DNA of 34,462 bases from Bacillota bacterium (GTDB lineage: Bacteria; Bacillota; Limnochordia; Darwinibacteriales; Darwinibacteriaceae): assembly GCA_012838305.1 (NCBI GenBank), contig DUPN01000021.1, positions 1-34,462 of the forward strand, read 5' to 3'. This document shows, one piece after another, positions 2,977 through 34,462 of this stretch. The first letter of the stretch is position 1. Each line of letters starts with the position of its first letter. The notes below the pieces were generated by a model, which worked only from the letters and a program-made list of their open reading frames with translations, was not told where the DNA came from and made no database searches. The position numbers were made by a program, and so were the translations under genes.

Positions 2977-4088
2977 AGAAGATGAGACGATTGCACATTC
3001 TGTTCACTGTGTTACTGCTTGTCCTGTTGGCGTCAAACGGTGTGCTGTTAGCTCAGTCTGCGGGCGAGATAAGTTCGGCGACAGAAGTACTGGGCTGGGA
3101 ATATGTAATATCCATTAGCGATGAAATGGTGGATACCTCGGCATTTGTCAAGGCTCCGCCATACAGAATTGGCTTCTTGACTGGGTTCCAGGGTAATACA
3201 TGGGCAATCCAGTTTACGAGGGAGCTATTTGAAGAAGCAGAAAAGTATGGTGACTTAATCGCAGAAATAGTGCATCTTGACGCTAACTTGGAAATCCCAA
3301 GACAGATTTCTTCGCTAGAGGACGTAGTGGCTAAGGGCGTGGACGCCATCGTGATTGATCCTGTGTCACCTACGGCTTTGGGCGGAGTCCTGGAAATGAT
3401 AAAGCAGAAAAACATTCCAGTTATTGCCGCTAGCAGTCAGATACCCCTGGAGCAAGTTACTGCCTGGGTCGGACGTAACGACTATGAGTACGGCAAGGTT
3501 ACGGCTATTTGGTTAGCGGAGAAAATGGGTTACAGCGGCAACATTATTGCTCTTTCGGGTGTCGCGGGCAATCCCGTTGCCGAGGAACGCTGGAAAGGTG
3601 CCAAAGACGTTTTCGATCAACACCCAGGGATCAAAGTGTTAACTAGACAATTCGCAGAATGGGGATTTGCTCAAGCCAAAGGAGTTATGGCCAGTCTGCT
3701 GCCAGCTTACCCTCAGATTGATGGTGTGTGGTCAGGCGGCGGAGCCATGACCCAAGGTGCGATGCAGGCATTCCAGGATGCAGGAAGAGAACTGGTGCCG
3801 ATGGTAGGAGAGGCTAACAATGGTTTTCTCCTGGACTGGATGAAGGCAAGTGATCAAGGATTTGAGAGCATTGCATTCAATAACCCGACCAACCACACAG
3901 CCATTGCTCTAAGGTTAGCTTTGAAGGCACTCCGGGGAGAGCCAATTCCCATCAGGGTAGACGCTAATGCGCCTTACATCCTGAATCTCGATACCGCCAA
4001 GCTCTATGCACGTCCGGATCTTGCAGATGGGTATTGGGTTGGCACATCGCTCAGTGAAGAAACGCTGAAGGAAATGTGGAGCGAATAA
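2973..4088 (+). CDS. CUT2 sugar ABC transporter substrate-binding protein (RbsB-like)
   Basis: The protein has 371 residues. It begins with a positively charged and then hydrophobic signal segment (MKKMRRLHILFTVLLLVLLA), with probable cleavage shortly after LLAQS. No lipobox cysteine is evident. The mature part is a type-I periplasmic-binding-protein fold, with IGFLTGFQGNTWA near the start and GVDAIVIDPVSPTAL marking the first lobe. It delivers a sugar to the permeases encoded downstream. The start at 2973 overlaps the previous stop as ATGA, with GGGAGG three bases upstream; the ATG at 2982 is a possible alternative. A strong stem-loop follows the stop codon. The ligand is unknown. Confidence 0.9.
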   Translation: MKKMRRLHILFTVLLLVLLASNGVLLAQSAGEISSATEVLGWEYVISISDEMVDTSAFVKAPPYRIGFLTGFQGNTWAIQFTRELFEEAEKYGDLIAEIVHLDANLEIPRQISSLEDVVAKGVDAIVIDPVSPTALGGVLEMIKQKNIPVIAASSQIPLEQVTAWVGRNDYEYGKVTAIWLAEKMGYSGNIIALSGVAGNPVAEERWKGAKDVFDQHPGIKVLTRQFAEWGFAQAKGVMASLLPAYPQIDGVWSGGGAMTQGAMQAFQDAGRELVPMVGEANNGFLLDWMKASDQGFESIAFNNPTNHTAIALRLALKALRGEPIPIRVDANAPYILNLDTAKLYARPDLADGYWVGTSLSEETLKEMWSE

Positions 4089-4107
4089 TACGTCTGGTGT
4101 GTTTTGA

Positions 4108-4138
4108 GGGGAGAATGCACTTTTTGTGCATTTTCCCC
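4108..4138 (+). promoter_or_regulatory. Intercistronic stem-loop after the CUT2 binding-protein gene
   Basis: A 13-bp stem (4108-4120 with 4126-4138, one G·U pair) closes a five-T loop. It starts 20 bases after the binding-protein stop and ends just before the ATPase ribosome-binding site. No U-run follows, so it is not a classical terminator. Such hairpins commonly protect the upstream message from 3' decay and raise binding-protein output over the membrane subunits. That role is inferred here. Confidence 0.75.
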
Positions 4139-4158
4139 ATTACAAAAGAGGTGTGTGC

Positions 4159-5667
4159 ATGGAAAACAGACGATGCCTACTAAAAATGGTGGATGTTGCA
4201 AAGAGCTTTCCAGGGGTTAAGGCGCTTGATGGAGTGAACTTCAGTCTTGAGGAAGGCGAAATACATGCTTTGGTTGGAGAAAACGGAGCTGGCAAGACAA
4301 CGCTTATGAATGTACTGGGGGGTGTACTTAAACCGGATTCGGGACAGATCTTCATTGAGGGCAAGGAAACAGATATCAGCAACCCCCTTGTTGCGCGCGA
4401 ACTCGGGATAGCGTTTATCCACCAAGAATTGAACCTTATTGATGAGCTTTCCGTTATGGAGAACCTCTTCGTTGGCAATGAACCTGTTACGAGAAAAAAG
4501 ACAATTGACTGGAGGGCTATGGAGCAACGCAGTCTCGAAATACTCGAGAAGTTGGGACTGGACCTTGATCCCCACCAAATAGTGAGAAGGCTGCCGATGT
4601 CCCTTAAGCAAATGATTGAGATAGCCAAAGCCTTGGTATTTGAGGCTCAGATCATTGTCATGGATGAACCCACATCATCGTTGACTGAGGGCGAAGCGGA
4701 GATACTTTTTAAGCTAATCAAGAATCTAAAGAGCCACGGTAAAGGAATCATATATATTTCCCATCGTATGGAAGAAATATTCGAGTTGTCCGATAGGATC
4801 ACGGTGCTGCGGAATGGATCTTACATCGCCACCAAGGACACGTCTTCAACAAACCACGACGAGTTGGTTGCCTTAATGATCGGTGGAGATCCCGGACAGC
4901 ATTTCCACAAAGACGAAAGTCTTAGGAAGGACGTAGTCTTGGACATTCGGAATCTCTCAGGTCATGATCTGGTAAAAGATATCACTTTACAGGTCAGAGC
5001 AGGAGAGATTTTGGGTATCGCAGGCTTAGTTGGAGCCGGCCGAACGGAATTGTTGGAAACCGTTTTTGGCATTTATCCGCCGCGCAAAGGGGAGATCTCC
5101 TTTCTGGGCAAGCCGTTTAAACCCTCTTCGCCTCGAGCATCTATTAAGGCAGGTATTGCCTATGTGCCCGAAGATCGAGTGGCGAAAGGACTATTTCTAG
5201 ATTTTGATCTTTACGAGAACATTGCTTTGGTGAAGTCTGAACGAGACGCAATTTATGGTCATACCCATCTTCCAAAAATGCGCACAGAAATGAACCCTGT
5301 CATAGGTACTATGGGCATAAGGACGCCCTCTCCGCGTCAACAAGTAAAGAATTTGAGCGGAGGCAACCGTCAGAAAGTTATTCTAGCCCGCTGGGTTTAT
5401 GCTGGAATGCGCGTGCTTTTGATCAACGAGCCAACGAGGGGTATTGACGTAGGTGCCAAGTCGGAGATATACCAACTGCTCAAGAGACTCAATCGCGAAG
5501 GAGTGGCGATTGTGATGGTTTCTTCGGATCTGTCTGAGATATTCGGTGTCAGCCATCGTATTGCTGTGATGCATGAAGGACGCATAGTCGCTGTCTACGA
5601 CGCTGATCAAACCGATCGGCAGCAGGTCTTAAGTAACATGACCGGCCTAATTCACAGTAAGGTATAG
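4159..5667 (+). CDS. CUT2 sugar ABC transporter ATP-binding protein (RbsA-like, two nucleotide-binding domains)
   Basis: The 502-residue protein has two tandem ATPase domains, as in RbsA/MglA. Domain 1 has Walker A GENGAGKTT and Walker B IVMDEPTSSLT. Domain 2 has the degenerate P-loop GLVGAGRTELL usual for this family and a good signature, LSGGNRQKVILARW. Two departures are visible: the domain-1 signature reads LPMSLKQMIEIAKAL in place of the LSVGQQQ-type motif, and domain-2 Walker B reads LLINEPTRGID with Asn where Asp is usual. It energises uptake through the two downstream permeases. ATG 4159 is chosen because AAAGAGGTG lies just upstream; a GTG at 4126 would place the start inside the hairpin. 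Confidence 0.93.
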   Translation: MENRRCLLKMVDVAKSFPGVKALDGVNFSLEEGEIHALVGENGAGKTTLMNVLGGVLKPDSGQIFIEGKETDISNPLVARELGIAFIHQELNLIDELSVMENLFVGNEPVTRKKTIDWRAMEQRSLEILEKLGLDLDPHQIVRRLPMSLKQMIEIAKALVFEAQIIVMDEPTSSLTEGEAEILFKLIKNLKSHGKGIIYISHRMEEIFELSDRITVLRNGSYIATKDTSSTNHDELVALMIGGDPGQHFHKDESLRKDVVLDIRNLSGHDLVKDITLQVRAGEILGIAGLVGAGRTELLETVFGIYPPRKGEISFLGKPFKPSSPRASIKAGIAYVPEDRVAKGLFLDFDLYENIALVKSERDAIYGHTHLPKMRTEMNPVIGTMGIRTPSPRQQVKNLSGGNRQKVILARWVYAGMRVLLINEPTRGIDVGAKSEIYQLLKRLNREGVAIVMVSSDLSEIFGVSHRIAVMHEGRIVAVYDADQTDRQQVLSNMTGLIHSKV

Positions 5668-5681
5668 ATTGAGGTGTTTGT

Positions 5682-6650
5682 ATGCGCAGAGTAAAGTCGA
5701 TTAGTGATTCCAAGAGGCAGCTCATCACACTCTATCTGACGGTCTTGGGAATGTATGCAATACCAGCCTTGTTCTCAGCACCCTTTCGGAGTGTCCAAAA
5801 TGCAACCAATATATTGAACCAGGCGGCACCGATCGGGTTTGTCGCCTTAGGCCAGACATTTCCTATTCTGATTGGAGGAATTGACCTCTCTGTTGGCTCC
5901 GTGGTAAGTCTAACGACGGCACTAGCAGCCGTTTATATGGCTACATCCGGAGGCATTTTCACAGGAGTTTGTCTTTGTCTGTTTGCCGCAGCTGTGGTAG
6001 GGCTGGTTAACGGTTTGGTCATAAACAAACTAAGGGTTGAACCTTTGATCGCTACGCTAGGAACGACCGGAGTGGTAAGCGGTATCACGCTTGCCATTAT
6101 GCCGTATCCAGGGGGCTATGTTCCTTCGGGGTTCACTAATTGGTGGTCTTACCGGGTCTTTGGGTTCTTCCCTTTGGCTTTTGTGTACTTCTTGGTAGGT
6201 CTTTTGATCTGCCATCTCATCCTAAACTTTACTAGATTTGGACGCCGAGTCTATGCATTGGGCGGAGACGAGCACAAGGCATCGGTCGCAGGTATCAAGG
6301 TCAAACGGATCAAAATGGGTGTTTACGTTCTAAGTTCGGTTTTCGCTTCCATAGGTGGTTTGGCGTTAGCTGCTCGGATGCGTTCCGGTGACCCCTTAGC
6401 AGGTAACCCGTTCACACTCTCTTCCATTGCGGCTGTTATAGTCGGCGGGACCAGTTTCACAGGTGGAGTTGGCGGGGTGATCGGCACGGCTGCAGGGGTG
6501 GCGATAATGGGCCTTTTAAGCGTCATTCTCAACATCTACGGAATATCCCCATTCTTTCAGAACGTATTAGCAGGGCTGATTGTTGTAGCGGCCGTTGTCT
6601 TTAATTCCATCCGATCAAGGTCGATACTTCAGGCGAAAGGACGTCAGTGA
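5682..6650 (+). CDS. CUT2 sugar ABC transporter permease (RbsC-like) 1
   Basis: The 322-residue integral membrane protein has the BPD_transp_2 pattern. It consists of a run of hydrophobic helices with the hallmark GGIDLSVGSVVSLT near residue 70 and a GGTSFTGGVGGVIGT loop in the C-terminal part. It forms the membrane channel with the following permease. The start is preceded by GAGGTG at a normal distance, 14 bases after the ATPase stop. Its stop codon directly abuts the next ATG, so the two permeases are translationally coupled. Confidence 0.92.
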   Translation: MRRVKSISDSKRQLITLYLTVLGMYAIPALFSAPFRSVQNATNILNQAAPIGFVALGQTFPILIGGIDLSVGSVVSLTTALAAVYMATSGGIFTGVCLCLFAAAVVGLVNGLVINKLRVEPLIATLGTTGVVSGITLAIMPYPGGYVPSGFTNWWSYRVFGFFPLAFVYFLVGLLICHLILNFTRFGRRVYALGGDEHKASVAGIKVKRIKMGVYVLSSVFASIGGLALAARMRSGDPLAGNPFTLSSIAAVIVGGTSFTGGVGGVIGTAAGVAIMGLLSVILNIYGISPFFQNVLAGLIVVAAVVFNSIRSRSILQAKGRQ

Positions 6651-7658
6651 ATGAGAATCTCTGTTGTACGTAAACTGGGCAGGACGGGTCTGATTTATAT
6701 ATCTTTAGTCATCGTGTTGTGTGTCTTGTTGGCGGCTTCAGGAATTCTTATCCCCGACACGCTTAAGGCGACACACCTTTTGGAGATCGCTCGCCAAAGT
6801 GTACCCTTGGGAATCACCTCTCTAGGGCAGACCCTGGTTATTCTGTCGGGAGGAATCGATCTATCTGTGGGTGAAATGATGACTTTGGCGAATATTGTGG
6901 GAGCGGATCTAATGCGGGGCAAGGATGAAATGGCCTTGAAGGCCATTCTCGTGGTCTCGCTGCTGGGGCTTGTTCTAGGAGGTATTAATGGCTGGGTTAT
7001 TGCGCAGACTGACGTTCCTCCCCTAGTAATGACTTTCGGTATGGGATCAATTGTGAAGGGCGCATATCTTCTTTATTGTGGCGGTGCGCCAAAGGGTTCT
7101 GTTTCCCCGATTCTGCGTACATTAGGTTCGGGAAGACTGGGGATAGTTCCGATCTCTCCACTGCTTTTTCTTGGCTTGTTCGGTGTTCTGCTTTTTTTCT
7201 CCAAAAGGACTACATGGGGAAGATCAACCTTTTACATCGGTAACAATTCCAAAGCAGCCTATTATGCAGGGATCCCAACAAAGTGGCGTTTAGTGTTGAT
7301 TTACGCGATCAGTGGGCTGATGGCTGTTTTTTCGGGCTTGATACTATCGGGATATATCGGCATAGCCAACTTTAGCGTTGGTGGAGATGCTTACAACATG
7401 AACTCTGTTGCAGCGGGGGTAGTCGGCGGTAACACCTTTAATGGACAAGGTGGATTGGGCGGTGCAGTACTGGGTTCGCTGATTATCACTTTGCTTACAA
7501 GCCTGATGACGTCTCTCGGAATAGGGCAAGCGGGCAAATCTGTCATGCAGGGAGTCGTTATTACCTTGATGGTCGCACTTTATACTTCACAAACCGACCT
7601 GGTGGGTAAGCTGAAGAGGTTCTATAAAGAAAGAGGGAGACGCCATGTTCCACAGTGA
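6651..7658 (+). CDS. CUT2 sugar ABC transporter permease (RbsC-like) 2
   Basis: This second, divergent 335-residue permease of the same family has GGIDLSVGEMMTLAN near residue 70 and GGNTFNGQGGLGGAVLGS in the C-terminal half. Two non-identical permeases next to one RbsA-like ATPase imply a heterodimeric channel, a common arrangement in Firmicutes CUT2 systems. It starts immediately after the previous stop (AAAGGACG upstream) and overlaps the following dehydrogenase gene by 14 bases. Confidence 0.92.
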   Translation: MRISVVRKLGRTGLIYISLVIVLCVLLAASGILIPDTLKATHLLEIARQSVPLGITSLGQTLVILSGGIDLSVGEMMTLANIVGADLMRGKDEMALKAILVVSLLGLVLGGINGWVIAQTDVPPLVMTFGMGSIVKGAYLLYCGGAPKGSVSPILRTLGSGRLGIVPISPLLFLGLFGVLLFFSKRTTWGRSTFYIGNNSKAAYYAGIPTKWRLVLIYAISGLMAVFSGLILSGYIGIANFSVGGDAYNMNSVAAGVVGGNTFNGQGGLGGAVLGSLIITLLTSLMTSLGIGQAGKSVMQGVVITLMVALYTSQTDLVGKLKRFYKERGRRHVPQ

Positions 7659-8433
7659 CCTGCAAGGAAAGGTTGCACTTATAACAGGGGTAAGTTCCGG
7701 CATTGGAAAAGCTTTGGCTCTCGCGCTGTACCGCGCAGGGGCAAGAATCGCTGGTTGTGCCCTGGATGGAGAGGGGCTTGAAACCCTTCGAAAGGATTTG
7801 GGCGGATCATATCTGGCTGAGGTCGATATTACTGATCAGACGGCGTTCCAGGACTTCTTTGGTGTTGCCACCGATCGCCTGGGATTGGCAGAGATCGTGA
7901 TTGCAAATGCAGGTGTAACAGATAGAAAACACCGATCTATAGCTGATCTGCCTATCGACGTGTGGCGAGCTATCATTGAGACAAACCTTACGGGAACGTT
8001 CATTACTCTGAAGACTGTTTTGCCCGAGTTGGCTCATGCAAGACGCGGTAACATTGCCGTTATAACGTCGCTATTGGGACAGAAGGGCTATGCCGCTGCT
8101 AACGATAGCGCCTATTGTGCCTCCAAGTTCGGTATTGAGGGACTTGTGGAGGTGGCCGCGGCTGAGTTCAGCAGACCATTCGGCTTGAACATTAACACGG
8201 TTTTCCCAGCTGCAAAAGTAGACACTGGTTTTTTCAGCCACTTAACAGAAGATGCCCGTAGTGAGCTTGCTCCTCCAGAAATTTTGAATGAGCTCGTACT
8301 TTATCTCTCTGCCTTGCCTCCATTTTCTCTTTCGGGTCACCAACTTAACGGAAAACGATGGGTAACGGATGCAAGTTACAGGGATGAAATCGCGAGGACA
8401 ATATCTAACAATAGAAAGGCTGATGACGTGTGA
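7645..8433 (+). CDS. Short-chain dehydrogenase/reductase (SDR)
   Basis: The 262-residue classical SDR has a Rossmann TGVSSGIG nucleotide loop (14-21), NAG at 88-90 and the catalytic set S142, Y157 and K161 (YCASK). Hydrophobic LALALYRAGARIAGCAL follows the glycine loop, and no acidic residue is obvious at the exact end of beta-2, so cofactor preference is unclear. It should oxidise or reduce a hydroxyl/keto group of the imported sugar. It overlaps the upstream permease by 14 bases and the downstream hydrolase by four (GTGA), which ties it to this operon. The C-terminal loop that sets substrate specificity does not match any subfamily I know. Confidence 0.9.
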   Translation: MFHSDLQGKVALITGVSSGIGKALALALYRAGARIAGCALDGEGLETLRKDLGGSYLAEVDITDQTAFQDFFGVATDRLGLAEIVIANAGVTDRKHRSIADLPIDVWRAIIETNLTGTFITLKTVLPELAHARRGNIAVITSLLGQKGYAAANDSAYCASKFGIEGLVEVAAAEFSRPFGLNINTVFPAAKVDTGFFSHLTEDARSELAPPEILNELVLYLSALPPFSLSGHQLNGKRWVTDASYRDEIARTISNNRKADDV

Positions 8434-9347
8434 GCATCGTCAATACTATCAAAGGACCTATACCAAGCCGTGAACTTGGTTTTACCTACACCCATGAACA
8501 CTTGGTCTGTTTCCCCCCGCGTCCAGCAATGAAGGACGATCCTGATTATCAGTTGCCTTCTACCAGTAAAGCAATTGAAGAGTTAGAATACTTCTATGCC
8601 GCAGGTGGAAGGACGCTGGTCGAAGGAACGGCGAGAGATTACGGTCGTGATGTAATGGCCATGAACGAAATTGCGCAAAAGACCGCGGTCAACATCATAT
8701 TCTGTACAGGCTACAACAAAAGTAGGTTTTATGACAACGAAACGCTAAAGGCCAGCGAAGGTGAACTGGCGGATCTTATGATTAAGGAACTCACGGAAGG
8801 TGTGGGTGACACCGGGTTGAAGCCTGGCTACATAAAGTGTGGATCATGGTACAATGTGATTACACCGGAAGAAGAGAAAGTCACTAAAGCTGCGGCGAAG
8901 GCCCATCTGGCAACAAAGGCACCGATTTGGGTGCATACTGAAGCTGGTACGATGGGGCTCGAACAACTGGATATTTTGGAGGCGGCAGGTGTCAATCTGC
9001 ACAAGGTGTGCGTTGGGCACATGGATCGGAATCCAGACTTGTGGCTTCACTGCGAAGTTGCCAAGAGAGGTGCCTACGTAGGTTATGATGGACCTGGAAA
9101 AGTGAAATACTTCCCTGACTCTGTTCGCATCGAACTGATCAAAGGAATGATTGCGAAGGGCTTTCAAGACAGGTTGCTCATTTCAGGGGATATGGGTCGT
9201 CAATCCTACTTGAGGGCGTATCACGGTGGACCTGGATTTGAGTATATCATTAAAAAGTTCATACCTCGAATGTTGGCAGAAGGAATAGCACAGTCTTATA
9301 TTGATCAGATTTGGGTTGAAAATCCCGCGGAATGGCTCGGGGTATAA
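8430..9347 (+). CDS. Phosphotriesterase-family metallohydrolase (lactonase-like)
   Basis: The 305-residue amidohydrolase-superfamily TIM barrel has the complete binuclear metal set of the Php/PTE family: H22 and H24 in THEH, the bridging lysine K136 (GYIKCG), H169 (WVHTEAG), H197 (VGHMDRN) and D254 (ISGDMGR). Characterised relatives include sugar-phosphate lactonases as well as organophosphate hydrolases. Downstream of a sugar dehydrogenase, a lactonase role is plausible: SDR oxidises, this enzyme opens the lactone. That link is inference. The start is GTG 8430, overlapping the SDR stop, with GAAAGG upstream. It is the last gene of the operon. Confidence 0.9.
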   Translation: MSIVNTIKGPIPSRELGFTYTHEHLVCFPPRPAMKDDPDYQLPSTSKAIEELEYFYAAGGRTLVEGTARDYGRDVMAMNEIAQKTAVNIIFCTGYNKSRFYDNETLKASEGELADLMIKELTEGVGDTGLKPGYIKCGSWYNVITPEEEKVTKAAAKAHLATKAPIWVHTEAGTMGLEQLDILEAAGVNLHKVCVGHMDRNPDLWLHCEVAKRGAYVGYDGPGKVKYFPDSVRIELIKGMIAKGFQDRLLISGDMGRQSYLRAYHGGPGFEYIIKKFIPRMLAEGIAQSYIDQIWVENPAEWLGV

Positions 9348-19548: not shown

Positions 19549-20388
19549 ATGCATATTCCACAATTGAGTGTTACTGTTTCTTCAATACGGTCGAGTTCAG
19601 CACCCATTGTTTTGCAGGGTGACTGGGGAGAGCAGATCGCAAAAGCAAAGGCGCTTGGCTATCATCAAGTTGAACTCCATATTAGGAACCCTAAGAGCAT
19701 AGATGCGGATTCGATTCTTCACGTTCTTGATCAGACCGCCGTGCAGGTCCCGGCCATCGGGACGGGACAGACATATTCTGTCGATCACCTTAGTTTCTCC
19801 TCGCTTGATATGGCGATTCGCCAAGCTGCGGTTCAACGGATCAAGGAGCAGATTAGGCTAGCTTCGTTCCTCAAGGCCCAGGTGATCATGGGATCCGTCC
19901 GAGGATCACTGCCCAAAGATGAGCCTGAGCAGAAAACGGCGTACTATGTCCTGGTTGATTGCATAAAGGATTGTCTGGACGAAGCGGAACGTTACGGGGT
20001 AGATCTGAGTTTAGAGGCAATTAATCGGTATGAAACCAATGTCTGGAATTCTGCAGCTGAGACCGCTGCTTTTATCCAGGGATTGGGATCGAAAAGACTC
20101 GGTTTACATTTAGATACCTTCCACATGAATATTGAGGAAGTATCTCTCGAGGAAACCATCAGGGAACATGGCAGAATATTGTCCCACATTCACCTGGCTG
20201 ACAGCAACCGATTGGCCCCAGGACAAGGACACATAGATTTTCTTCAAGTCATCGGCGCGCTAAAGGACGTGGGGTATCGCGGCTCTCTAGGTCTAGAGTA
20301 CTTGCCTTTGCCGGAACCTGAAACAGCGGCTACACAAGGACTGGACCATTTGCAGAGTATCTTGAAGACTGTATATTCTAGGCCTTAA
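19549..20388 (+). CDS. Sugar isomerase/epimerase, tagatose/psicose 3-epimerase-like TIM barrel
   Basis: The 279-residue protein resembles the D-tagatose/D-psicose 3-epimerase group more than its two neighbours do. It has catalytic and metal residues E156 (SLEAINRYE), D189 in LHLDTFHMNIEE, H215 in HIHLADSNR..PGQGHIDF, and E250 at the last strand. These two glutamates act as the acid/base pair in characterised members. It probably epimerises a ketose or ketose phosphate. GGAAGGA lies about 12 bases before the ATG, slightly far. It is one of four such barrels in the window but not a close paralogue of the others. Confidence 0.88.
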   Translation: MHIPQLSVTVSSIRSSSAPIVLQGDWGEQIAKAKALGYHQVELHIRNPKSIDADSILHVLDQTAVQVPAIGTGQTYSVDHLSFSSLDMAIRQAAVQRIKEQIRLASFLKAQVIMGSVRGSLPKDEPEQKTAYYVLVDCIKDCLDEAERYGVDLSLEAINRYETNVWNSAAETAAFIQGLGSKRLGLHLDTFHMNIEEVSLEETIREHGRILSHIHLADSNRLAPGQGHIDFLQVIGALKDVGYRGSLGLEYLPLPEPETAATQGLDHLQSILKTVYSRP

Positions 20389-21840: not shown

Positions 21841-23085
21841 ATGATTACAGACTCTCAGCAGTTAAAGACAGTTCTGCAGAATGAACTGTCCGTTGTAAAG
21901 ATCACGGACGTACATACCCATGTGTTCCCGGCTGACTTTGGTTCGATGCTCTTATTTGGTATTGACGAGGTTTTAACTTATCATTACTTGATAGCAGAAT
22001 TTTTCCGATACAGCACCATGCCCTATGGAGAGTTCTTTGCTCTATCCAAGTCCAAGCAGGCTGATTTGATCTGGCAGACCTTGTTCTTGGATCACTCTCC
22101 CGTGAGTGAAGCCCAGCGCGGTGCCCTAACCGTCCTAAGACGCCTTGGGCTCGACGTGCAAAGCCGCTCCCTCGAGGAATATCGGGAATATTACCGTTCC
22201 AGAACCATGGCCCAGCAGATTGATACTGTCTTTGCCTTGGCTGGGGTGGAAGAAGTGGTCATGACAAATGACCCCTTTGATCCCCAAGAACGGGCCCTTT
22301 GGAAATCCGGTGCCGGCAAGGAAGACCCGCGTTTCCAGGCCGCACTGCGGATCGATCCCCTCTTAATGGACTATACGAACGCCTACAAAATCCTACAGGC
22401 CGAGGGATATGAGGTCGATGCCAGCTTGAGCGGGAATTCTGCAGCTGAAGTACGGCGCTTCCTGACCGACTGGATCGGGAGAATGGGCGCCCTATATATG
22501 GCGGTTTCTCTGCCCCCAGACTTTAACCTGTCCGATGATTCCCTGCGCACCCGCATTGTGAAAGAGTGCGTCCTGCCAGTAAGCCAAGGGCAAAATGTCC
22601 CATTTGCCATGATGATTGGGGTCAAGAAACTCGTCAACGAGCAGCTGCGTCTGGCCGGAGATTCCGTCGGGAAAGCGGATATCACGGTTATTGAAGAGCT
22701 GTGTACGCAATACCCGGATAACAAGTTCCTCGTCACCATGTTGTCCCGAGAAAACCAGCATGAGCTGGCTATCACCGCCCGGAAGTACCGCAATTTGATG
22801 GTCTTTGGCTGCTGGTGGTTCCTGAACAATCCCAGTATTGTCAAGGAGATCACTAAGATCCGCTTGGAGACATTGGGGTTGTCCTTTACTCCGCAACACT
22901 CCGATGCACGGGTTTTGGAACACCTTATTTATAAATGGGATCACTCCAAAGCCTTGATCGGAGAAGTGCTGGAGGAAAAATACACTGATCTGTTGGCTAC
23001 GGGCTGGACTTTGACGCCAGACGAGGTCCGCAGGGATATTGGAGCTCTATTTGGAGATAACTTCCACCGTTTCTTAGATCGTTGA
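21841..23085 (+). CDS. uxaC: Uronate (glucuronate/galacturonate) isomerase family protein
   Basis: The 414-residue amidohydrolase-superfamily barrel begins with TDVHTHVFP (metal ligands H25, H27) and the FGIDEVLTYHYLIAEFF segment characteristic of UxaC proteins. It is shorter than E. coli UxaC (470), which is usual for the Thermotoga/Firmicutes branch. UxaC converts D-galacturonate to D-tagaturonate or D-glucuronate to D-fructuronate in the cytoplasm. The neighbour UxaE uses exactly these products, which strongly supports the call. AGGAAGGTGA lies upstream of ATG 21841. It probably begins a transcript separate from the NagB-like gene because of the 578-base gap. Confidence 0.82.
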   Translation: MITDSQQLKTVLQNELSVVKITDVHTHVFPADFGSMLLFGIDEVLTYHYLIAEFFRYSTMPYGEFFALSKSKQADLIWQTLFLDHSPVSEAQRGALTVLRRLGLDVQSRSLEEYREYYRSRTMAQQIDTVFALAGVEEVVMTNDPFDPQERALWKSGAGKEDPRFQAALRIDPLLMDYTNAYKILQAEGYEVDASLSGNSAAEVRRFLTDWIGRMGALYMAVSLPPDFNLSDDSLRTRIVKECVLPVSQGQNVPFAMMIGVKKLVNEQLRLAGDSVGKADITVIEELCTQYPDNKFLVTMLSRENQHELAITARKYRNLMVFGCWWFLNNPSIVKEITKIRLETLGLSFTPQHSDARVLEHLIYKWDHSKALIGEVLEEKYTDLLATGWTLTPDEVRRDIGALFGDNFHRFLDR

Positions 23086-23170
23086 GCACGAAGAATGGCG
23101 TCAGGTGCCGAGCACTTGGCGTCTCGATTCTCTACTATACAGGAATACCGTAATTATGGGAGGAATGACT

Positions 23171-24667
23171 GTGTCAAATTGGATTGAAGTGGTTCAGCAA
23201 GCGCAAGATGTAGAGTCTTTGCGTGAGATGTTAACAAAGCAAAGAGAGGTGTATCCGGCTTCGGTGACCTTGGCCGGGGATCAGCTCCTATTCATGGTCA
23301 AAGAAGAGCAAGAGACTTCACTCGTTCTTGTCTCAAGCGGAGATGGAACCGATGATTTTCAAGGCGATACACGCAGCCTTGGCGCCTTTACTGCTAAGAA
23401 AGCTCCTTTAAACAACCAGAATGCCAATGCCCTGCGCTCTCTTTTTCCCTGGGCGGCTCCCCAGGCCTTTGGTCCTGGTGGGATCTCCATTGGCCTGGGC
23501 GATCGGCTAGGTCTCGCTTCCCCAGGGCATCTGCAGGCGATCGCCGGCACCCAGGTGCGTCCGGTTCTGGCGCAGCAATCCATGCGGGAGTTGGATCTAA
23601 CCAATCGTACGTATGCTGATGTCTTGGATGCGGCTACCTGGGCCGTATTCCAAGAGGGTTACCAGGATGGGTATGGGGCCGATGGCGACCACCTCAAGAA
23701 CATCAAGGATATTGGTGTAGCTTTAAACTTAGGCTTTAGCATGATTACCCTCGACTGCTCGGAGCACATTGACGATGAAGTCCTGGAGCTGGGGGAGGCT
23801 GAAGTCAGCGCTCGTTACAATCAGCTTCCCATCGAGAAACGGGAGGCCTTTGAAAAGCTCTACAAAGATCAGGATTATGTGCTGCAAGATGGTTCCATGA
23901 TCAAGATGGCACCGCAGAACTATGAGCGGATGATCTTAACCTATCATCAAGCCTTGGACTTTATGGAGGAAGTGTATCAGCAGGCCATCGCACCTTTGGA
24001 TCGCACCATCGATTTTGAGATCAGTATAGATGAAGTGGCTACACCTACCACCCCCCAGGATCATTTCTTTGTGGCTAGTGAGCTCAAGAAGAGGGGCATT
24101 AAGGCTTGGAGTGTTGCGCCTCGTTTTTGCGGTCGGTTTGAAAAGGGGATCGATTACATTGGTGATTTAGGGCAGTTTGAGGAAGAGTTTGCGGTTCACG
24201 CCCAGATTGCCAGCCACTTTGGATACAAGCTCAGCATTCACTCGGGAAGTGACAAATTCAGTGTCTTCCCCATCATAGGCAAGTATGCGGAAGCGGCAGG
24301 CTATCATGTCAAAACAGCCGGCACGAATTGGCTAGAAGCGCTGAGGGTGATCGCCAGGGTGAATCCGGATCTTTTCCGCAAGCTCCACGAAAAGGCCCTT
24401 GTCTCTTTGGAGGCCGCCCGGAAGTATTACAATGTGAGTTTGGATATGACCAAGATCCCCGAGCTTAGCTCGCTAGAAGACGAGGAACTCCCCCGGTTCC
24501 TTGACGAAAACGATCCCCGGCAGCTGCTCCACATCACCTATGGCTTTATGCTGCAGGACCCCGCTCTCAGAGGGGAGATCTATGGGGTATTGCTGGAAAA
24601 CGAGGCGGCGTATGCGCAGGCCCTAGTTACCCATATCGGTCGTCACTTAAGAACACTCGGTCTGTAA
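23171..24667 (+). CDS. uxaE: Tagaturonate/fructuronate 3-epimerase UxaE
   Basis: The 498-residue protein matches the UxaE family first recognised in Thermotoga maritima. Characteristic pieces are FGPGGISIGLGDRLGLASPGH, the repeated ISID..TPTTPQDHFF, and the conserved SIHSGSDKFSVFPIIGKYA followed by KTAGTNWLEALR. It interconverts D-tagaturonate and D-fructuronate, so galacturonate and glucuronate catabolism merge without the classical UxaB/UxaA branch. GTG 23171 is chosen because GGGAGG (23158-23163) is seven bases upstream; ATG 23165 is too close to it and ATG 23156 overlaps it. It sits 85 bases after uxaC. Confidence 0.88.
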   Translation: MSNWIEVVQQAQDVESLREMLTKQREVYPASVTLAGDQLLFMVKEEQETSLVLVSSGDGTDDFQGDTRSLGAFTAKKAPLNNQNANALRSLFPWAAPQAFGPGGISIGLGDRLGLASPGHLQAIAGTQVRPVLAQQSMRELDLTNRTYADVLDAATWAVFQEGYQDGYGADGDHLKNIKDIGVALNLGFSMITLDCSEHIDDEVLELGEAEVSARYNQLPIEKREAFEKLYKDQDYVLQDGSMIKMAPQNYERMILTYHQALDFMEEVYQQAIAPLDRTIDFEISIDEVATPTTPQDHFFVASELKKRGIKAWSVAPRFCGRFEKGIDYIGDLGQFEEEFAVHAQIASHFGYKLSIHSGSDKFSVFPIIGKYAEAAGYHVKTAGTNWLEALRVIARVNPDLFRKLHEKALVSLEAARKYYNVSLDMTKIPELSSLEDEELPRFLDENDPRQLLHITYGFMLQDPALRGEIYGVLLENEAAYAQALVTHIGRHLRTLGL

Positions 24668-28665: not shown

Positions 28666-29472
28666 ATGAGACCAAAAATCATGTTTTCTAGTAGGGTGTT
28701 CGGGAACAATACCCAGGCCATCTTAGACTATGCTGTGGCTAAGGGCTTTGATGGTGTGGAATGGTATCACAATAGTTTCCGGCTGCGTACCAACAAGAAG
28801 ATGCGTAATGCCTTCTTTAACACCCTGGATCAGTATCCGAAGCTGCACTACACCTTTCATCTGCCTACTGTGGATGTAGAGTTAGCTCACGCCGAGCCCC
28901 TGATAGCCCAGGCCTCCCTGGGCTATCTGAAAATGTACATTGAGTATCTGGCCCCCTGGTTACAGAGTCAGGACGAGCCTCCTGTTTTGACGCTGCACGT
29001 TGGATCCAATTCCATACCCGTAGACGAGCTGAACTGGGAGACTGCCCTGGCGCATCTGCGCGAGCTCGGTGAACTTGCCCGACAAAGAAACGCTAACCTT
29101 CTCTTGGAAAACCTTAAGGTTGGCTGGACAACGGATCCGAAGACACATTTGGCTATGGCTAACCATGCGGGTCTCGGAATTACCTTTGATACGGGTCATG
29201 CGGCCTCAAACCCTCTGGTGCGATCGGGAGAGCTTGATGTGGTTGAGTACATGGATCGGCTCAAGGATAGGATTCAGCATGTCCATTTTTATGCGTATGA
29301 GAGCATTGAAAAAGGCGGGCATATCCCTCCCGAGACTTGGGATGAGGTGGCCCAGACTTGGCGAAAGGTGCTTAGCCTGCCCCAGGTGCGTTCTGTGGTT
29401 TTTGAGTTATCTACACAACGGGAACTGGAGCAGACCTTCCATCTTCTCATGGAAAACAGGGATGAGTGGTAA
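28666..29472 (+). CDS. Sugar phosphate isomerase/epimerase family TIM barrel (fourth copy)
   Basis: The 268-residue xylose-isomerase-like barrel has an early strand-helix unit GFDGVEWYHN, LHVGSN, LLLENLKVGW (glutamate ligand), GITFDTGHAA (D and H ligands), HVHFYAYES and a final glutamate in VVFELS. It is more divergent than the three barrels upstream and resembles the endonuclease-IV-like branch. It lies 16 bases after the Fbp-type permease with GGAGA before the ATG, so it is probably the last gene of the uronate/importer transcript. The substrate may be what the importer brings in. No DNA-repair context is present. Confidence 0.82.
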   Translation: MRPKIMFSSRVFGNNTQAILDYAVAKGFDGVEWYHNSFRLRTNKKMRNAFFNTLDQYPKLHYTFHLPTVDVELAHAEPLIAQASLGYLKMYIEYLAPWLQSQDEPPVLTLHVGSNSIPVDELNWETALAHLRELGELARQRNANLLLENLKVGWTTDPKTHLAMANHAGLGITFDTGHAASNPLVRSGELDVVEYMDRLKDRIQHVHFYAYESIEKGGHIPPETWDEVAQTWRKVLSLPQVRSVVFELSTQRELEQTFHLLMENRDEW

Positions 29473-29521
29473 GGTCACTTCAGAGCGATGTTACTTTAGT
29501 TAGCCAGAGTGGGGGAGGCTA

Positions 29522-29980
29522 AGGAGACTGTTCCCTGTCAGCGAGAACCACAGTATTGGACGATTCGAGCCCAGGCGCCGCGCGAGAGAAGACATTGGCC
29601 ACAGCGAGAAACTGGTCTGGGCTGTTAACGAAGCTCGATTAGTGAATTTCCTTACTCCAAGGGATTGTCCCAGAGTCACTTTCTACGCCAAGGGCGACAC
29701 CACGCCAGAGGATATCGATCGATTCATAGGTAACTCCCGCGTGACTTCCGTCATTGCCATTGAACACGGTTGGTTGCACAGGATGAACGAGACCAGGCTA
29801 GCCGTTTACCGGATCCTGCCCAATTTGTGGCCGCTTGGGGATGCTGTCAAGTCATCAAGTCTGGGTTTCTCCATGTGCAGAATGAGAAATGCAATTTCAT
29901 CAGGGTCTTCGCGAAAGAATCGGGATTTTGGAATTCCTCCCCAACAAGCGGCTGTCCATCTTTGGTCTTGGCTAGGCTAG
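29522..29980 (+). pseudogene. Decayed DUF6886-family gene
   Basis: One open frame from 29522 reads RRLFPVSENHSIGRFEPRR, then KLVWAVNEARLVNFLTPRDC and PRVTFYAKGDTTPEDIDRF, and later NLWPLGDAVKSSSLGFSMCR. The order and wording match the small DUF6886 family as I remember it. Three signs of decay are visible: the expected ATG is AGG at 29522-29524 although a GGGGGAGG site is still in place; an expected His is Pro (CCT); and about 40 residues between VYR and LPNLWPL are missing. The frame then runs past the family's normal end. A GTG at 29642 would give only a headless fragment. The family's function is unknown. Confidence 0.6.
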
Positions 29981-30030
29981 ACAGGCAGCAGAATTACACA
30001 AGCATGCAGATAGAGGGCATAGTGACAACG

Positions 30031-30060
30031 AAGACTGGAATCCCCAGTCTTTCTTGATCT
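30031..30060 (+). terminator. Probable rho-independent terminator
   Basis: An eight-base-pair stem AAGACTGG/CCAGTCTT (30031-30038 with 30044-30051, loop AATCC) is followed by the mixed T-rich TCTTGATCT. It probably ends the transcript of the importer genes. The weak U-run lowers confidence. Confidence 0.55.
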
Positions 30061-30162
30061 TGGCATAAGAACGCAGCGACGTTCAAATTTTGGCTGCCTC
30101 CCTCCTTTCGCCCCCTCGGCCAGAAGTCCAAAGATGGGTTGTAACGCTAAACAAACATTTAC

Positions 30163-30190
30163 TTCACAAAAAGGAAATTGTCGTTATATG
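30163..30190 (+). promoter_or_regulatory. Candidate sigma-70/SigA promoter for the transketolase operon
   Basis: TTCACA (5 of 6 matches to TTGACA) is separated by 16 bases from TATATG (4 of 6 matches to TATAAT). It lies about 75 bases before the transketolase start and downstream of the terminator-like hairpin. The TTGT....ACAA repeat at 30139-30154 adjoins it upstream. Confidence 0.4.
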
Positions 30191-30263
30191 CAGAAAGATC
30201 TAGGTGGTCAGATGTCGTACAATCACGGTCTGTGGGAAGGTAACGATAATTGGGGGTGGTGGT

Positions 30264-31109
30264 ATGCAGAACCGCGATATGGACTACTTAAAGGCCCGTG
30301 CCCGGCAGGTTCGAGAAGGAATTGTGCGGGCCATCGGGGTGAACAACAAAGGTCATCTGGGCGGTTCAATGTCTTCTGCTGATCTAGTAACCGCTTTGTA
30401 CTTCTACAAGATGCGTCATTGGCCCGATGATCCTTCGAACCCAGATCGGGATCGCTTCATCTTCAGTAAAGGTCATTCGGTCTTGGCCCAGTATGCGGCT
30501 CTGGCCCTATGTGGATATTTTCCCCTGCAGGCCTTGCCTTCCACAAAAAAACTCGGTTCTTTCCTCCAAGGACATCCCGAGCGGGATCGAACACCCGGCG
30601 TGGAGGCCAACACGGGCAGTCTGGGTCAGGGTTTATCCATCGGCCTGGGCATGGCTTTAACCGGGCGCTTGGATAGCCGGGATTACAGGGTCTACGTGAT
30701 TTTGGGCGATGCAGAACTGGCCGAAGGACAGATCTGGGAGGCTGTCACCGCGGCAGCATTTTATAGGGTGGCCAATCTGGTTGCCATTGTGGATCACAAC
30801 AAGTTGCAGGCCACCGGTGTGATTTCCGAGATGTATGACGTCGGGGAGATCGGCCGGAAATTTGCTGCCTTTGGCTGGCGGGTGCTGGAGACTGACGGCC
30901 ATGACCTGGCATCCATCGCAGATGCCTTAGATGCAGCGGACGAGAACACGGGACAGCCTGTTATGATCCTGGCCCACACGGTCAAGGGCAAAGGAGTCTC
31001 CTTCGCTGAGAATGAACCAAGCTTCCATAATGGAGCCCTAACGGCTGAACAGTACGAACAGGCCTTAGGGGAAATCGTGAGTGGATGGGGTGAAGGAAAT
31101 GAAAAGTAA
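30264..31109 (+). CDS. Transketolase, N-terminal (thiamine-diphosphate binding) subunit
   Basis: The 281-residue half-transketolase has conserved GHLGGSMSSADL, FSKGHSVLAQYA, GSLGQGLSIGLGMAL and the thiamine-diphosphate/metal motif GDAELAEGQIWEA...DHNKLQ. It needs the C-terminal subunit encoded next, which it overlaps by 11 bases. Split transketolases move two-carbon ketol units. In sugar operons they serve dedicated pathways, for example apulose-4-phosphate or sulfo-sugar cleavage, as well as the general pentose phosphate route. ATG 30264 follows GGGGGTGG; an earlier frame start at 30204 has no such site. Confidence 0.93.
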   Translation: MQNRDMDYLKARARQVREGIVRAIGVNNKGHLGGSMSSADLVTALYFYKMRHWPDDPSNPDRDRFIFSKGHSVLAQYAALALCGYFPLQALPSTKKLGSFLQGHPERDRTPGVEANTGSLGQGLSIGLGMALTGRLDSRDYRVYVILGDAELAEGQIWEAVTAAAFYRVANLVAIVDHNKLQATGVISEMYDVGEIGRKFAAFGWRVLETDGHDLASIADALDAADENTGQPVMILAHTVKGKGVSFAENEPSFHNGALTAEQYEQALGEIVSGWGEGNEK

Positions 31110-32037
31110 GGCATGCCCCCGTGAGACCTATGGACGGGCTTTACTCAAGGCTGCGGAAGAAGACCGGCGCATTGTGGCGTTGGACGCCGACTTAAGCGGT
31201 TCAACCATGTCCTGCTATGTTCGGAGAAGCTATCCGGCTCGCTATTTTGAGATGGGCATTGGCGAGCAGAACATGGTGGCGACAGCGGTGGGATTGGCCT
31301 TGAGCGGCAAGATTCCCTTTGTCCATTCTTTTTCCATGTTTGTGACTGGTCGCGCCTTTGAGCAGGTTCGTCAGAGTGTGGCTTTACCGAAGGCCAATGT
31401 GAAACTTGTCGGTTCTAGTTATGGCTTCTCCGACTTTGGCGATGGCGCCACACACCAAACGGTGGAAGATGTGGCCATCATGCGGGCAATCCCGAACATG
31501 ACCATCCTCTCACCTATGGACCCTGGCGAGGTCGAAGAAGCGGTGCGTTTGGCCAGGGCGATCGAAGGTCCGGTCTATTTGCGGATCAGCCGCAGCGAAA
31601 TGGAGTTTTTGCCAAAAGAGATCCCCGGAAAGTCCATGCTCGAACCGTCCCTGATGGCCAAGGGGGAGGACATTACCGTCTTTGCCAATGGATTGATGAC
31701 AGCCGAAGCGCTCTTGGCACGTGAGACTCTGTTGGAGGAGGGGATCTCAGCACGGGTAGTCAATGTTTCCTGCCTCAAGCCTCTGCCTAAGGAGATGATC
31801 TTGCGCTGGACAGGTGATGTTGAGGCTGTGATCACCATTGAGGAGCATAGTGTCATTGGCGGTCTTGGGAGTGCCGTCCTGGAAGCAACCGCTCTGGAGC
31901 CGAAGCCAACCTTTGTGATCGGGATAGACGATGCATTTGGGCAGTCTGCCTGGAGTCACAGGGAGCTTCTGGAGCATTACGGACTTACCGCTGCTGCCAT
32001 TTGCAGGGCGGCGCGAGCTCTTTTGAAGAGGGGGTAA
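31099..32037 (+). CDS. Transketolase, C-terminal subunit
   Basis: The 312-residue partner subunit has the pyrimidine-binding domain with the catalytic glutamate in GIGEQNMVATAVGLAL, then the FVHSFSMFVTGRAFEQVR and DGATHQTVEDVAIMRAIPNM blocks. A C-terminal transketolase domain follows (VINVSCLKPLP-like strand and IEEHSVIGGLGSAV). It is encoded directly after the N-terminal half and the two form one enzyme. ATG 31099 is chosen with GGGGTGA six bases upstream; GTG 31081 is an alternative. Confidence 0.93.
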   Translation: MKSKACPRETYGRALLKAAEEDRRIVALDADLSGSTMSCYVRRSYPARYFEMGIGEQNMVATAVGLALSGKIPFVHSFSMFVTGRAFEQVRQSVALPKANVKLVGSSYGFSDFGDGATHQTVEDVAIMRAIPNMTILSPMDPGEVEEAVRLARAIEGPVYLRISRSEMEFLPKEIPGKSMLEPSLMAKGEDITVFANGLMTAEALLARETLLEEGISARVVNVSCLKPLPKEMILRWTGDVEAVITIEEHSVIGGLGSAVLEATALEPKPTFVIGIDDAFGQSAWSHRELLEHYGLTAAAICRAARALLKRG

Positions 32038-32043
32038 TGATCG

Positions 32044-32808
32044 ATGCAGGTCTTTAGTTTGGCGGGAAAAGTGGCCGTGGTTACCGGAGGCGCCCAGGGC
32101 CTAGGACAGGCGATGGCTTTCAGTCTAGCCGAGGCGGGGGCCGTAATCGTCATTGCGGACATTAACCAAGAGCAAGGAGAGGGAACTGTCTCCGCCCTGA
32201 GGGATGCAGGGTTTGAGGCAGTCTTCTATGCTGTGGATGTGGCCAAACGTAGTAGCGTGGACGATCTGGTGCAAGCTGTGGTCGGGCAATTTGGTCAGCT
32301 TGATGTGGTTGTGAACAGCGCAGGCTTGAACCGTCGTTATCGGATGGCGGATATCTCTCTGCAGGACTACGATACGATCATGGATGTGAACCTCAAGGGC
32401 ACATTCCATGTCTGCCAATCTGCAGGGAGGGCTATGTTGGAAAAGGGTACACCGGGCTCGATGATCAACATTTCGTCCATGTCGTCACACATCATCAATC
32501 GCCGCCGCCCAGTCGGTGTGTATTGTGCCTCCAAAGCCGGAGTGAATGGCTTAACCAGAGCATTTGCCGCGGAATGGGCACCCCATGGAATTCGGGTCAA
32601 TGCCATTGCCCCTGGGTATTTTCAAACACCCTTAAACGAGGCCTGGATCCATTCGGAACAAGGAACGGATGCCCTGTCCCAGACTCCCATGGGACGTTTT
32701 GCCCAGCCAGAGGAGATTGGGCCCACAGCCGTTTACCTGGCCTCTGATGCGTCCAGCTTTATGACAGGTCAAATCTTGGTGCTCGATGGGGGTTACACGA
32801 TCTGGTAG
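32044..32808 (+). CDS. SDR oxidoreductase, gluconate 5-dehydrogenase/KduD-like
   Basis: The 254-residue classical SDR has TGGAQGLG (14-21), D39 at the end of beta-2 (which favours NAD), NSAG, S144/S145, Y160 and K164 (YCASK), and the C-terminal VLDGGYTIW. The pattern is close to gluconate 5-dehydrogenase and 2-deoxy-gluconate 3-dehydrogenase. Fructuronate reductases of some Firmicutes are also SDRs, so it could be the missing step after UxaE, or it could act on the transketolase substrate. It starts six bases after the transketolase stop with GAGGGGG upstream, so it shares that transcript. Confidence 0.9.
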   Translation: MQVFSLAGKVAVVTGGAQGLGQAMAFSLAEAGAVIVIADINQEQGEGTVSALRDAGFEAVFYAVDVAKRSSVDDLVQAVVGQFGQLDVVVNSAGLNRRYRMADISLQDYDTIMDVNLKGTFHVCQSAGRAMLEKGTPGSMINISSMSSHIINRRRPVGVYCASKAGVNGLTRAFAAEWAPHGIRVNAIAPGYFQTPLNEAWIHSEQGTDALSQTPMGRFAQPEEIGPTAVYLASDASSFMTGQILVLDGGYTIW

Positions 32809-32843
32809 CTAGGCTCGAGAAGAATAGAAAAGGGGGAATTTCT

Positions 32844-34462
32844 GTGGTGCATGAGTATCATGTAGCGAAAACCGGCTCAGACTGGGGTTTGGGAACAAAG
32901 GAAGATCCCTTCCTGACCATCAGCAAGGCCGCGCGAGTGGCCCTGCCCGGTGACAGCATTACTGTTCACGAAGGGGAGTACAGGGAATGGGTTCGCCCCA
33001 AGAACAAGGGCTTGAGTGATTTGCGCAGAATCACTTACCAGGCGGCCCCAGGTGAAAAGGTCGTTATAAAGGGATCAGAACGCATCCAAAACTGGGTCCA
33101 GGTGGAAGGTTCCATTTGGAAAGCAGTTCTGCCCAATGCATTCTTTGGAGACTTCAATCCTTACCAGAGGCAGGTCATGGGAGATTGGCTCGTAGAAACC
33201 GATACAGGTGCACCAAAGCACCTTGGAGAGGTCTATCTCAATGGAATGTCCTTCTATGAGGCCGCCAGGCTTGAGGACCTGCAAAATCCCGTTCTCAGGG
33301 ACGAGGTAGTGGATAACAGGACGGGCAAGGTTGTTCCTGTGGTTAACAGGGAGCAGACAAGGTATCTTTGGTATGGAGAAGTCAAGGAAGAGGAGACCAC
33401 GATCTGGGCCAACTTCCATGAGCACGATCCCAATGAGCAGCTGGTGGAAATCAATGTGAGGCCGGCATGCTTTTATCCCGACCGACCGGGCATCGATTAC
33501 ATTACCGTACGAGGTTTTGAAATGGCCCAGGCAGCCACACCCTGGACACCGCCCACCGCTGATCAGCCTGGCCTACTAGGTCCCCATTGGAGTAAAGGGT
33601 GGGTTATTGAGGAGAACATCATCCATGACTCCAAATGCAGTGGCATTAGTATTGGTAAAGAAGTGTCCACGGGGGATATTTATCGCACGAAACACAAAGA
33701 TAAAGCGGGCTATCATTACCAAATCGAAGCGGTGTTCAATGCCCTGCATATAGGTTGGAGCAAGGAGAAAATCGGGTCTCATATCATTCGCAACAATCGG
33801 ATTTATGACTGTGGTCAAAACGGAATCGTGGGCCACCTTGGGTGTGTCTTTAGCCAGATCCATCACAACCACATTTACAACATTGGTCTGAAAAGGGAGT
33901 TCTATGGACATGAGATTGGCGGCATCAAGCTTCATGCACCAATTGACGTAGAGATCCACAATAATCGCATTCACGACTGTTCCATGGGAGTGTGGCTGGA
34001 CTGGCAAACCCAAGGGACCCGGGTCAGTCGGAATCTCTTTTATCGCAACAGCCGCGATCTCTACATAGAGGTGAGCCATGGTCCTTACATCGTCGATCAC
34101 AATATCTTTGCCTCCGACTACGCATTGGACAACTGGTCCCAAGGGGGAGCCTATGTCAACAATCTGATCTGCGGAAGGATAGCCCATGAAAAGGTACATC
34201 AACGGGCCACTCCCTATCACCTGCCCCACAGTACGCAAGTGGCTGGCTATGCGGCCATCTTCGGCGGGGATGATCGCTTCTACAACAATGTTTTCGTAGG
34301 CGCTGATCCCGCGGAGCATGCCGGAACCGCTTGTTACAACGGATACACCGTGTCGTTGGAGGAGTATCTGGAGAGAACCCACAGGGAACTAGATGATTTG
34401 CCGCTCTTCCCCGACGTGGAGCAGCCAGCCTATATCAATCACAATATGTACCTAAATGGCGC
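32844..34462 (+). CDS. Right-handed parallel beta-helix protein, GH141-like (3' truncated)
   Basis: A frame open from GTG 32844 (or 32847) to the window end gives at least 539 residues. AAGGGGGAA lies upstream. The start HEYHVAKTGSDWGLGTKEDP and LTISKAARVALPGD is the typical entry strand of carbohydrate-active beta-helix proteins. Later come repeating short units such as IIRNNRIYDCGQNGI, IHHNHIYNIG, IHNNRIHDCSMGVWL and VSRNLFYRNS, one per helix turn. The layout resembles GH141, which contains fucosidase and xylanase activities on plant polysaccharides, or a related lyase; this is a family resemblance from memory. No signal peptide is present, so it would act in the cytoplasm on imported oligosaccharides. 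Confidence 0.8.
   Translation, partial: MVHEYHVAKTGSDWGLGTKEDPFLTISKAARVALPGDSITVHEGEYREWVRPKNKGLSDLRRITYQAAPGEKVVIKGSERIQNWVQVEGSIWKAVLPNAFFGDFNPYQRQVMGDWLVETDTGAPKHLGEVYLNGMSFYEAARLEDLQNPVLRDEVVDNRTGKVVPVVNREQTRYLWYGEVKEEETTIWANFHEHDPNEQLVEINVRPACFYPDRPGIDYITVRGFEMAQAATPWTPPTADQPGLLGPHWSKGWVIEENIIHDSKCSGISIGKEVSTGDIYRTKHKDKAGYHYQIEAVFNALHIGWSKEKIGSHIIRNNRIYDCGQNGIVGHLGCVFSQIHHNHIYNIGLKREFYGHEIGGIKLHAPIDVEIHNNRIHDCSMGVWLDWQTQGTRVSRNLFYRNSRDLYIEVSHGPYIVDHNIFASDYALDNWSQGGAYVNNLICGRIAHEKVHQRATPYHLPHSTQVAGYAAIFGGDDRFYNNVFVGADPAEHAGTACYNGYTVSLEEYLERTHRELDDLPLFPDVEQPAYINHNMYLNG

Follow-up and report, generated by a model that had tools for sequence, protein, structure and literature searches.

The 34,462-bp stretch analysed here (the window), which is the entire contig G000:C79 of a draft genome of 2.68 Mb that is 94.9% complete, carries towards its end a split transketolase. 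This enzyme probably breaks down plant-derived sugar acids, as suggested by its sequence and by its position in relatives beside a GarR-type tartronate-semialdehyde reductase (TSR). We tentatively propose, at slightly less than an even chance, that the N-terminal subunit (TKN), the C-terminal subunit (TKC) and the short-chain dehydrogenase/reductase (SDR) that follows them form a single unit for the catabolism of a sugar acid, with a 4-keto-pentonate as the donor and tartronate semialdehyde as the product. Genes were called by Pfam/TIGRFAM profile scores, phmmer and tblastn; relative loci are labelled L and genomes G, and TSR was recognized at the genome level by a score above the cut-off of TIGR01505 (2-hydroxy-3-oxopropionate reductase).

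The split transketolase and its Ser461 branch

The features that carry the argument are the following:

30264-31109, + strand: TKN, transketolase N-terminal, thiamine diphosphate (ThDP)-binding subunit; PF00456 Transketolase_N, 178 bits
31099-32037, + strand: TKC, pyrimidine-binding and C-terminal subunit; PF02779 Transket_pyr, 135 bits, and PF02780 Transketolase_C, 74 bits
31417-31419, + strand: Ser codon that aligns with His461 of E. coli TktA and marks the TSR-linked branch; from an alignment with TktA, 6yaj and 110 deduplicated TKC rows
32044-32808, + strand: SDR, proposed keto-aldonate-forming dehydrogenase, orthologous to the gene that closes the TSR-TKN-TKC-SDR operon in relatives; PF13561, 234 bits

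The scores of the split transketolase and the SDR, both of which an earlier note on this DNA had reported, lie far beyond chance. The TKN open reading frame (ORF) opens at GTG 30204, and its likely start is ATG 30264, behind the stretch GGGGGTGGTGG; the likely start of TKC, ATG 31099, overlaps the 3' end of TKN, and TKC is followed by the SDR after 6 bp. The ThDP domain and the Pyr plus C-terminal domains thus lie in adjacent genes, with the catalytic residues kept: those aligned with TktA H26, H66, H100, D155, N185 and H261 in TKN, and with R358, S385, E411, D469, H473 and R520 in TKC. The closest solved relative is the split transketolase 6yaj/6yak (256 bits for TKN against the 6yak N-chain, 263 bits for TKC against the 6yaj/6yak C-chain), which has the same division of domains between two chains, but keeps His at position 461, where the window has Ser. 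According to the part of PMC7661550 available to us, that enzyme is the only transketolase of its organism, whereas the genome of the window also encodes a full-length one (461 bits to PF00456, contig C70), as well as a DXS-like gene. With a full-length enzyme on C70, the split one is not the housekeeping transketolase. Split transketolases as such are ordinary in the phylum: 263 of the 398 genomes sampled matched the TKC model at E <= 1e-105, and among the matches listed the open frames were mostly of ~310–400 aa.

In a tree of 51 TKC rows (five duplicate loci and one weak match of <100 bits left out, rows longer than 400 aa shortened to the 400 C-terminal residues), the window was nested in a branch of 25 rows with support of 100/99, with AptB of the apiose pathway outside it. 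Together with the Ser at 461, this position makes it nearly certain that the transketolase of the window belongs to what we call the Ser461 branch. In this branch, Ser replaces the phosphate-contacting His461 of E. coli TktA, R358, D469 and R520 are kept, and residue 385 is mostly Ser.

The residue and the reductase occur together. With six duplicate loci removed, 110 TKC rows remained, of which the 16 that were cut by an edge (6 with Ser) and one with a gap were dropped; the residues of L010 and L023 (mis-framed) and of L029 (no frame) were read from tblastn coordinates, L029 being too short for position 461. TSR was found within 1.3 kb in 21 of the 32 Ser461 rows and in none of the 61 in which His, Tyr, Asp, Thr, Asn or Gly occupies the position. 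The Fisher value of 3e-13 overstates this link; orthologous loci are related, so it should not be read as the probability of independent events. At the level of whole genomes, TSR was present in four of the five genomes with the core transketolase and in 0/17 of those without it among the 22 genomes of the window's family; these four (G002, G010, G016 and G018), each with its TSR in the branch operon, are the only TSR genomes of the family, and the fifth branch genome is that of the window. Across the 72 genomes of the class, TSR scored above the cut-off in 9/11 branch genomes versus 10/61 others.

The operon of the relatives and a putative sugar-acid route

The order GntR/FCD-TSR-TKN-TKC-SDR was found in L060, L061, L062, L008 (/L063), L064 and L067, and L066 has the same order without a GntR match; the full operon was also found, by transketolase score alone, in another family (L204). 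The transketolase halves of these operons are 58–83% identical to those of the window, the TKC orthologs in L060-L062, L008/L063, L064, L066 and L067 being 60–78% identical, and the window SDR is 65–79% identical to the transketolase-adjoining SDR of L008, L060-L062, L064-L067 and L204. In L064, UxaE (tagaturonate epimerase) comes after the SDR, and L065, which starts inside TKN at a contig edge, continues with TKC, SDR, a binding protein and UxaE. When a branch model was run against the 72 class genomes, 11 of these yielded a total of 13 matches that reached 526 bits or more, followed by three at 429–438 bits and then by matches of <=384 bits; TSR adjoins 11 of the 13 strongest, the exceptions being the window and the edge-cut L065. 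In the scan of the 398 phylum genomes, two further ones, G294 (519 bits) and G167 (458 bits), scored as members of the branch; TSR is adjacent in both, and G294 has the complete five-gene operon. The score of the branch model is not a clean boundary, because L198, with Ser461 and TSR, reached only 400 bits.

In other phyla (Planctomycetota, Synergistota and Spirochaetota), TSR adjoins the transketolase of L009, L010, L012, L014, L015, L016 and L019. The order in L012 and L015 is GntR-TKN-TKC-TSR-TctC/B/A-Zn-dehydrogenase (TctC tested in L012; TctB, TctA and the dehydrogenase in L015), and a GntP permease follows in L009, L014 and L016. These acid-type transporters and Zn-dehydrogenases near the transketolases of relatives count in favor of an acid route. 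A glycerate kinase gene (PF02595) immediately precedes TKN in L009 and, as judged by homology, also in L027 and L029, and lies 3.3 kb upstream in L024; the genome of the window has one glycerate kinase. In L070, an arabinofuranosidase-type gene (PF06964) directly precedes the regulator; like the family 120 glycoside hydrolase (GH120) gene beside the unit in the window, this pentosidase argues for the degradation of sugar acids.

Transketolase takes a HOCH2-CO- unit from a ketose, leaving an aldehyde. In the proposed route, whose direction, donor, acceptor and products we infer from the genes, the SDR would oxidize the penultimate carbon of an aldonate to give HOCH2-CO-CHOH-...-COOH, and the heterotetrameric split transketolase would use this unphosphorylated keto acid as a ketol donor, transferring the HOCH2-CO- unit to glyceraldehyde-3-phosphate to form xylulose-5-phosphate and releasing an acid semialdehyde. 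In relatives, the GarR-type reductase and then glycerate kinase would convert the semialdehyde to glycerate and phosphoglycerate. These two enzymes make tartronate semialdehyde the most likely product; as this aldehyde, the substrate of GarR, has three carbons, the donor would be a C5 acid with its keto group at C4, i.e. a 4-keto-pentonate. The last steps would be those of the galactarate/glucarate pathway (GarL-GarR-GarK), in which, however, tartronate semialdehyde is released by an aldolase, and not by a transketolase.

The reductase passed TIGR01505 in 10 of the 11 neighbors tested, the failing one (L020) lying 4 kb away, and five of the reductases were 55–66% identical to E. coli GarR versus 42–47% to GlxR, 29–34% to YgbJ (threonate dehydrogenase) and 36–37% to YihU. 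The models of the SDR and zinc-dependent alcohol dehydrogenase (Zn-ADH) families are not specific enough to name a substrate; the window SDR is 39% identical to E. coli IdnO, and the Zn-ADHs beside the transketolase are 26–28% identical to IdnD. Since both families include gluconate/idonate C5 dehydrogenases (IdnO and IdnD), oxidation of the penultimate carbon is supported, though not proven.

Two known enzymes bear on the residue. The engineered TktA R358I/H461S/R520Q (from Wang et al. 2022), as described in the part of PMC12016104 at hand, cleaves 5-ketogluconate, a keto-aldonate, to tartaric semialdehyde; it shares Ser461 with the branch, but is man-made, of full length and also altered at 358 and 520, two positions conserved in the natural branch. 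The sulfofructose transketolase SqwG/SqwH is split as well, and it forms xylulose-5-phosphate from an acidic unphosphorylated donor (PMC11659671, in the sections accessible to us). So, in two separate enzymes, a substitution at 461 accompanies the use of an acidic donor without phosphate. The kinship with SqwGH does not extend further: although that enzyme also has an altered head-group residue, its published RAFDR motif places Asp at 461 and Ala at 385, with sulfonate pathway neighbors, whereas the window has Ser at both positions, and the conserved neighbor of its branch is TSR and not the sulfoacetaldehyde enzymes. A sulfosugar transketolase of the SqwGH type is thus extremely improbable here.

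Several points weigh against the 4-keto-pentonate route. TSR was lacking within 1.3 kb in 11 of the 32 Ser461 rows, among them the window, L013 and L020 (TSR 4–6 kb away), L027 (glycerate kinase) and L107, an apparently AptB-like row that also lacks D469. By reasoning, the 4-keto acid of D-xylonate or L-arabinonate is L-threo, as against the usual D-threo of transketolase substrates. Two genes of the window, UxaE and one resembling IolO, suggest 5-keto-hexonates rather than 4-keto-pentonates. In the window itself, TSR does not stand beside the transketolase: tblastn gave nothing significant in the window and no remnant in the gap before TKN, and in the rest of this 94.9% complete genome no TSR was found by TIGR01505, with a single homology match of 33% identity and 40 bits. 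The gap is occupied as follows:

29473-30263: decayed stretch of ~790 bp between a TIM-barrel gene and TKN, where relatives have TSR directly before TKN
29642-29980: broken DUF6886 fragment; PF21820, 89 bits, partial match to the profile

The DUF6886 fragment in the place of TSR is a sign of rearrangement, and the window's copy may be incomplete or rewired, because its genome shows no TSR. These same findings would suit an orphan unit that has lost its regulator and reductase and whose remaining genes are decaying or put to other use. We consider this quite unlikely, as TKN, TKC and SDR are intact with the catalytic residues of the transketolase kept, a xylosidase gene lies 35 bp downstream, and TSR may be missing from the assembly only, given the incompleteness of the genome; we presume that the copy works without a TSR in view.

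Other genes of the window and competing explanations

The remaining genes that were considered as partners of the transketolase are listed below:

610-2202, + strand: FGGY kinase, a xylulokinase outside the transketolase unit; TIGR01312 (XylB), 393 bits, cut-off 380
23105-24667, + strand: UxaE tagaturonate epimerase, a possible pathway neighbor; PF16257, 614 bits
24769-29472, + strand: separate cassette of binding protein, ATPase, fused permease and TIM barrel, lying outside the transketolase unit
28666-29472: PF01261 TIM barrel, fourth and last gene of that cassette
32844-34462, + strand: GH120 beta-xylosidase, truncated; phmmer 888 bits to 3vst ('Xylosidase', XylC), residues 4–539; PF21258, 151 bits

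UxaE is the basis of a variant with a six-carbon donor, a 5-keto-hexonate such as 5-ketogluconate or the D-fructuronate that UxaE forms from tagaturonate, in which a four-carbon tartaric-type semialdehyde would be reduced to a tetronate by the GarR-like enzyme. It recurs after the transketolase-SDR unit in L064 and L065, and a TIM-barrel gene at 19549-20388 is close to the 5-keto-L-gluconate epimerase IolO (279 bits, cut-off 300), so that the middle of the window may encode a route of the inositol or 5-keto-hexonate type. Fructuronate has the D-threo configuration at C3/C4, which also favors this variant, as does the activity of the H461S-containing TktA on 5-ketogluconate (PMC12016104, part at hand). 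We keep the six-carbon donor in consideration because of UxaE and the IolO-like gene, but rate it as unlikely, though by no means negligible: by curated cut-offs the reductase is of GarR type, and glycerate kinase genes are neighbors. The family of GarR-type reductases mostly acts on beta-hydroxyacids, which fits a C3 rather than a C4 semialdehyde.

The last gene of the window, which the earlier note had described as GH141-like, turned out to belong to GH120, matching 3vst along the whole of its remaining length. It has the insertion domain PF21258, and the positions of XylC D382 and E405, which we take to be the catalytic Asp/Glu of this enzyme, are conserved; its C-terminus is missing, since the contig ends at 34462. 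With its start 35 bp after the SDR stop and GGGGG ahead of it, the gene probably shares a transcript with the SDR. A xylosidase next door, a xylulokinase in the same window and the kept positions R358, S385, D469 and R520 would suit an accessory pentose-phosphate transketolase fed with xylose by the GH120 enzyme. This is improbable, however, as the genome has its full-length transketolase and as TSR, with which the Ser461 branch is associated, is not required for the use of xylose.

The earlier note had suggested D-apiose degradation by an apulose-4-phosphate transketolase of the AptAB type, in favor of which the enzyme is split and shares its 34 kb with an FGGY kinase and several TIM-barrel genes. 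The PF01261 and FGGY families are indeed present, but neither gene is linked to the transketolase by a conserved neighborhood. The kinase is XylB, 23% identical to the kinase of the E. coli apiose cluster, and lies 28 kb away in a different gene group. The TIM barrel belongs to its ABC-transporter cassette: the same four genes, 68–89% identical, occur without a transketolase in L092-L095 (G005, G007, G021 and G016), and in G016 the transketolase operon is on another contig. This TIM barrel was also considered as a hydroxypyruvate isomerase replacing TSR, and rejected, as it showed no similarity to E. coli Hyi and is part of another cassette; elsewhere in the genome, a search for hydroxypyruvate isomerase gave only matches far below the cut-off.

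The comparison of the halves with AptA and AptB, which had been proposed as a check, separated them. The sequences of E. coli SE15 AptA/AptB, taken from the record named in the accessible part of PMC13001218, are likewise split and lie in a sugar operon with SDR genes, but TKN is 41% identical to AptA and TKC 32% to AptB, residues 358, 461 and 520 differ, and an FGGY kinase is linked rather than TSR. Grouping the window with AptB was rejected (approximately unbiased test, p 7e-9). In a 21-row tree, in which AptB is a long branch, the AptB pair appeared as the sister of the whole Ser461 branch with weak support (54/47), a grouping of the branch with AptB alone having p 0.013; in the 51-row tree AptB paired with L058 rather than with the window, a placement subject to the same long-branch caution. 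The window's transketolase neither groups with AptB nor shares an operon with an apulose kinase and an apiose isomerase, and its glycosidase is GH120, which makes the apiose reading very improbable. What stands of the earlier idea of a dedicated carbohydrate route is that the enzyme is not the housekeeping one and probably serves a carbohydrate-acid route, other than that of apiose.

Elsewhere in the window, next to the xylulokinase, a ribose-type ABC transporter and an SDR lie between creatininase-family and phosphotriesterase-family genes (2206-9347), as might be expected of a sugar or lactone operon. A 414-aa ORF at 21841-23085, just before UxaE, gave no Pfam match; inside it, ARAGORN called a tRNA-Glu at 22507-22595 on the minus strand that Rfam does not confirm.

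Other split transketolases and the wider meaning of the branch

The window's family also contains another clade of split transketolases, in which residue 461 is Asp and residue 469 is Asn (L049, L052 and L054-L057), three members of which have an IolE-like TIM barrel ~3–4 kb away (wider loci L098, L103 and L105). Two loci from the window's genus and family, L075 and L076, carry RbsBAC, a 292-aa gene, an FGGY kinase, TKN and TKC in this order; an apiose operon was considered for them and discarded, the 292-aa gene being a class II aldolase in L075, and another carbohydrate route appears probable. On a plasmid of Paenibacillus cellulosilyticus (L175), a TKC lies beside genes for CDP-glucose dehydratase, methyltransferases and a glycosyltransferase, which suggests a transketolase in deoxysugar biosynthesis.

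Taken across Bacillota, Planctomycetota, Synergistota and Spirochaetota, the Ser461 branch may represent an undescribed route of aldonate degradation, a generalization that we regard as possible but doubtful: a pentonate would be dehydrogenated at C4, its two-carbon head transferred to glyceraldehyde-3-phosphate and the tartronate semialdehyde reduced to glycerate, without an aldolase, a dehydratase or a kinase acting on the sugar acid. A description of such a route was not found in the open-licence PMC literature searched, which is not proof of its absence from print. If the route exists, annotations as "transketolase" would hide a pathway for sugar acids that several phyla share, and evolution would have reached the same Ser461 that engineers also picked for the cleavage of a keto-aldonate by transketolase. 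The branch would then offer ready enzymes for the chemistry of tartaric semialdehyde or tartronate semialdehyde, and its five-gene operon would be directly testable.

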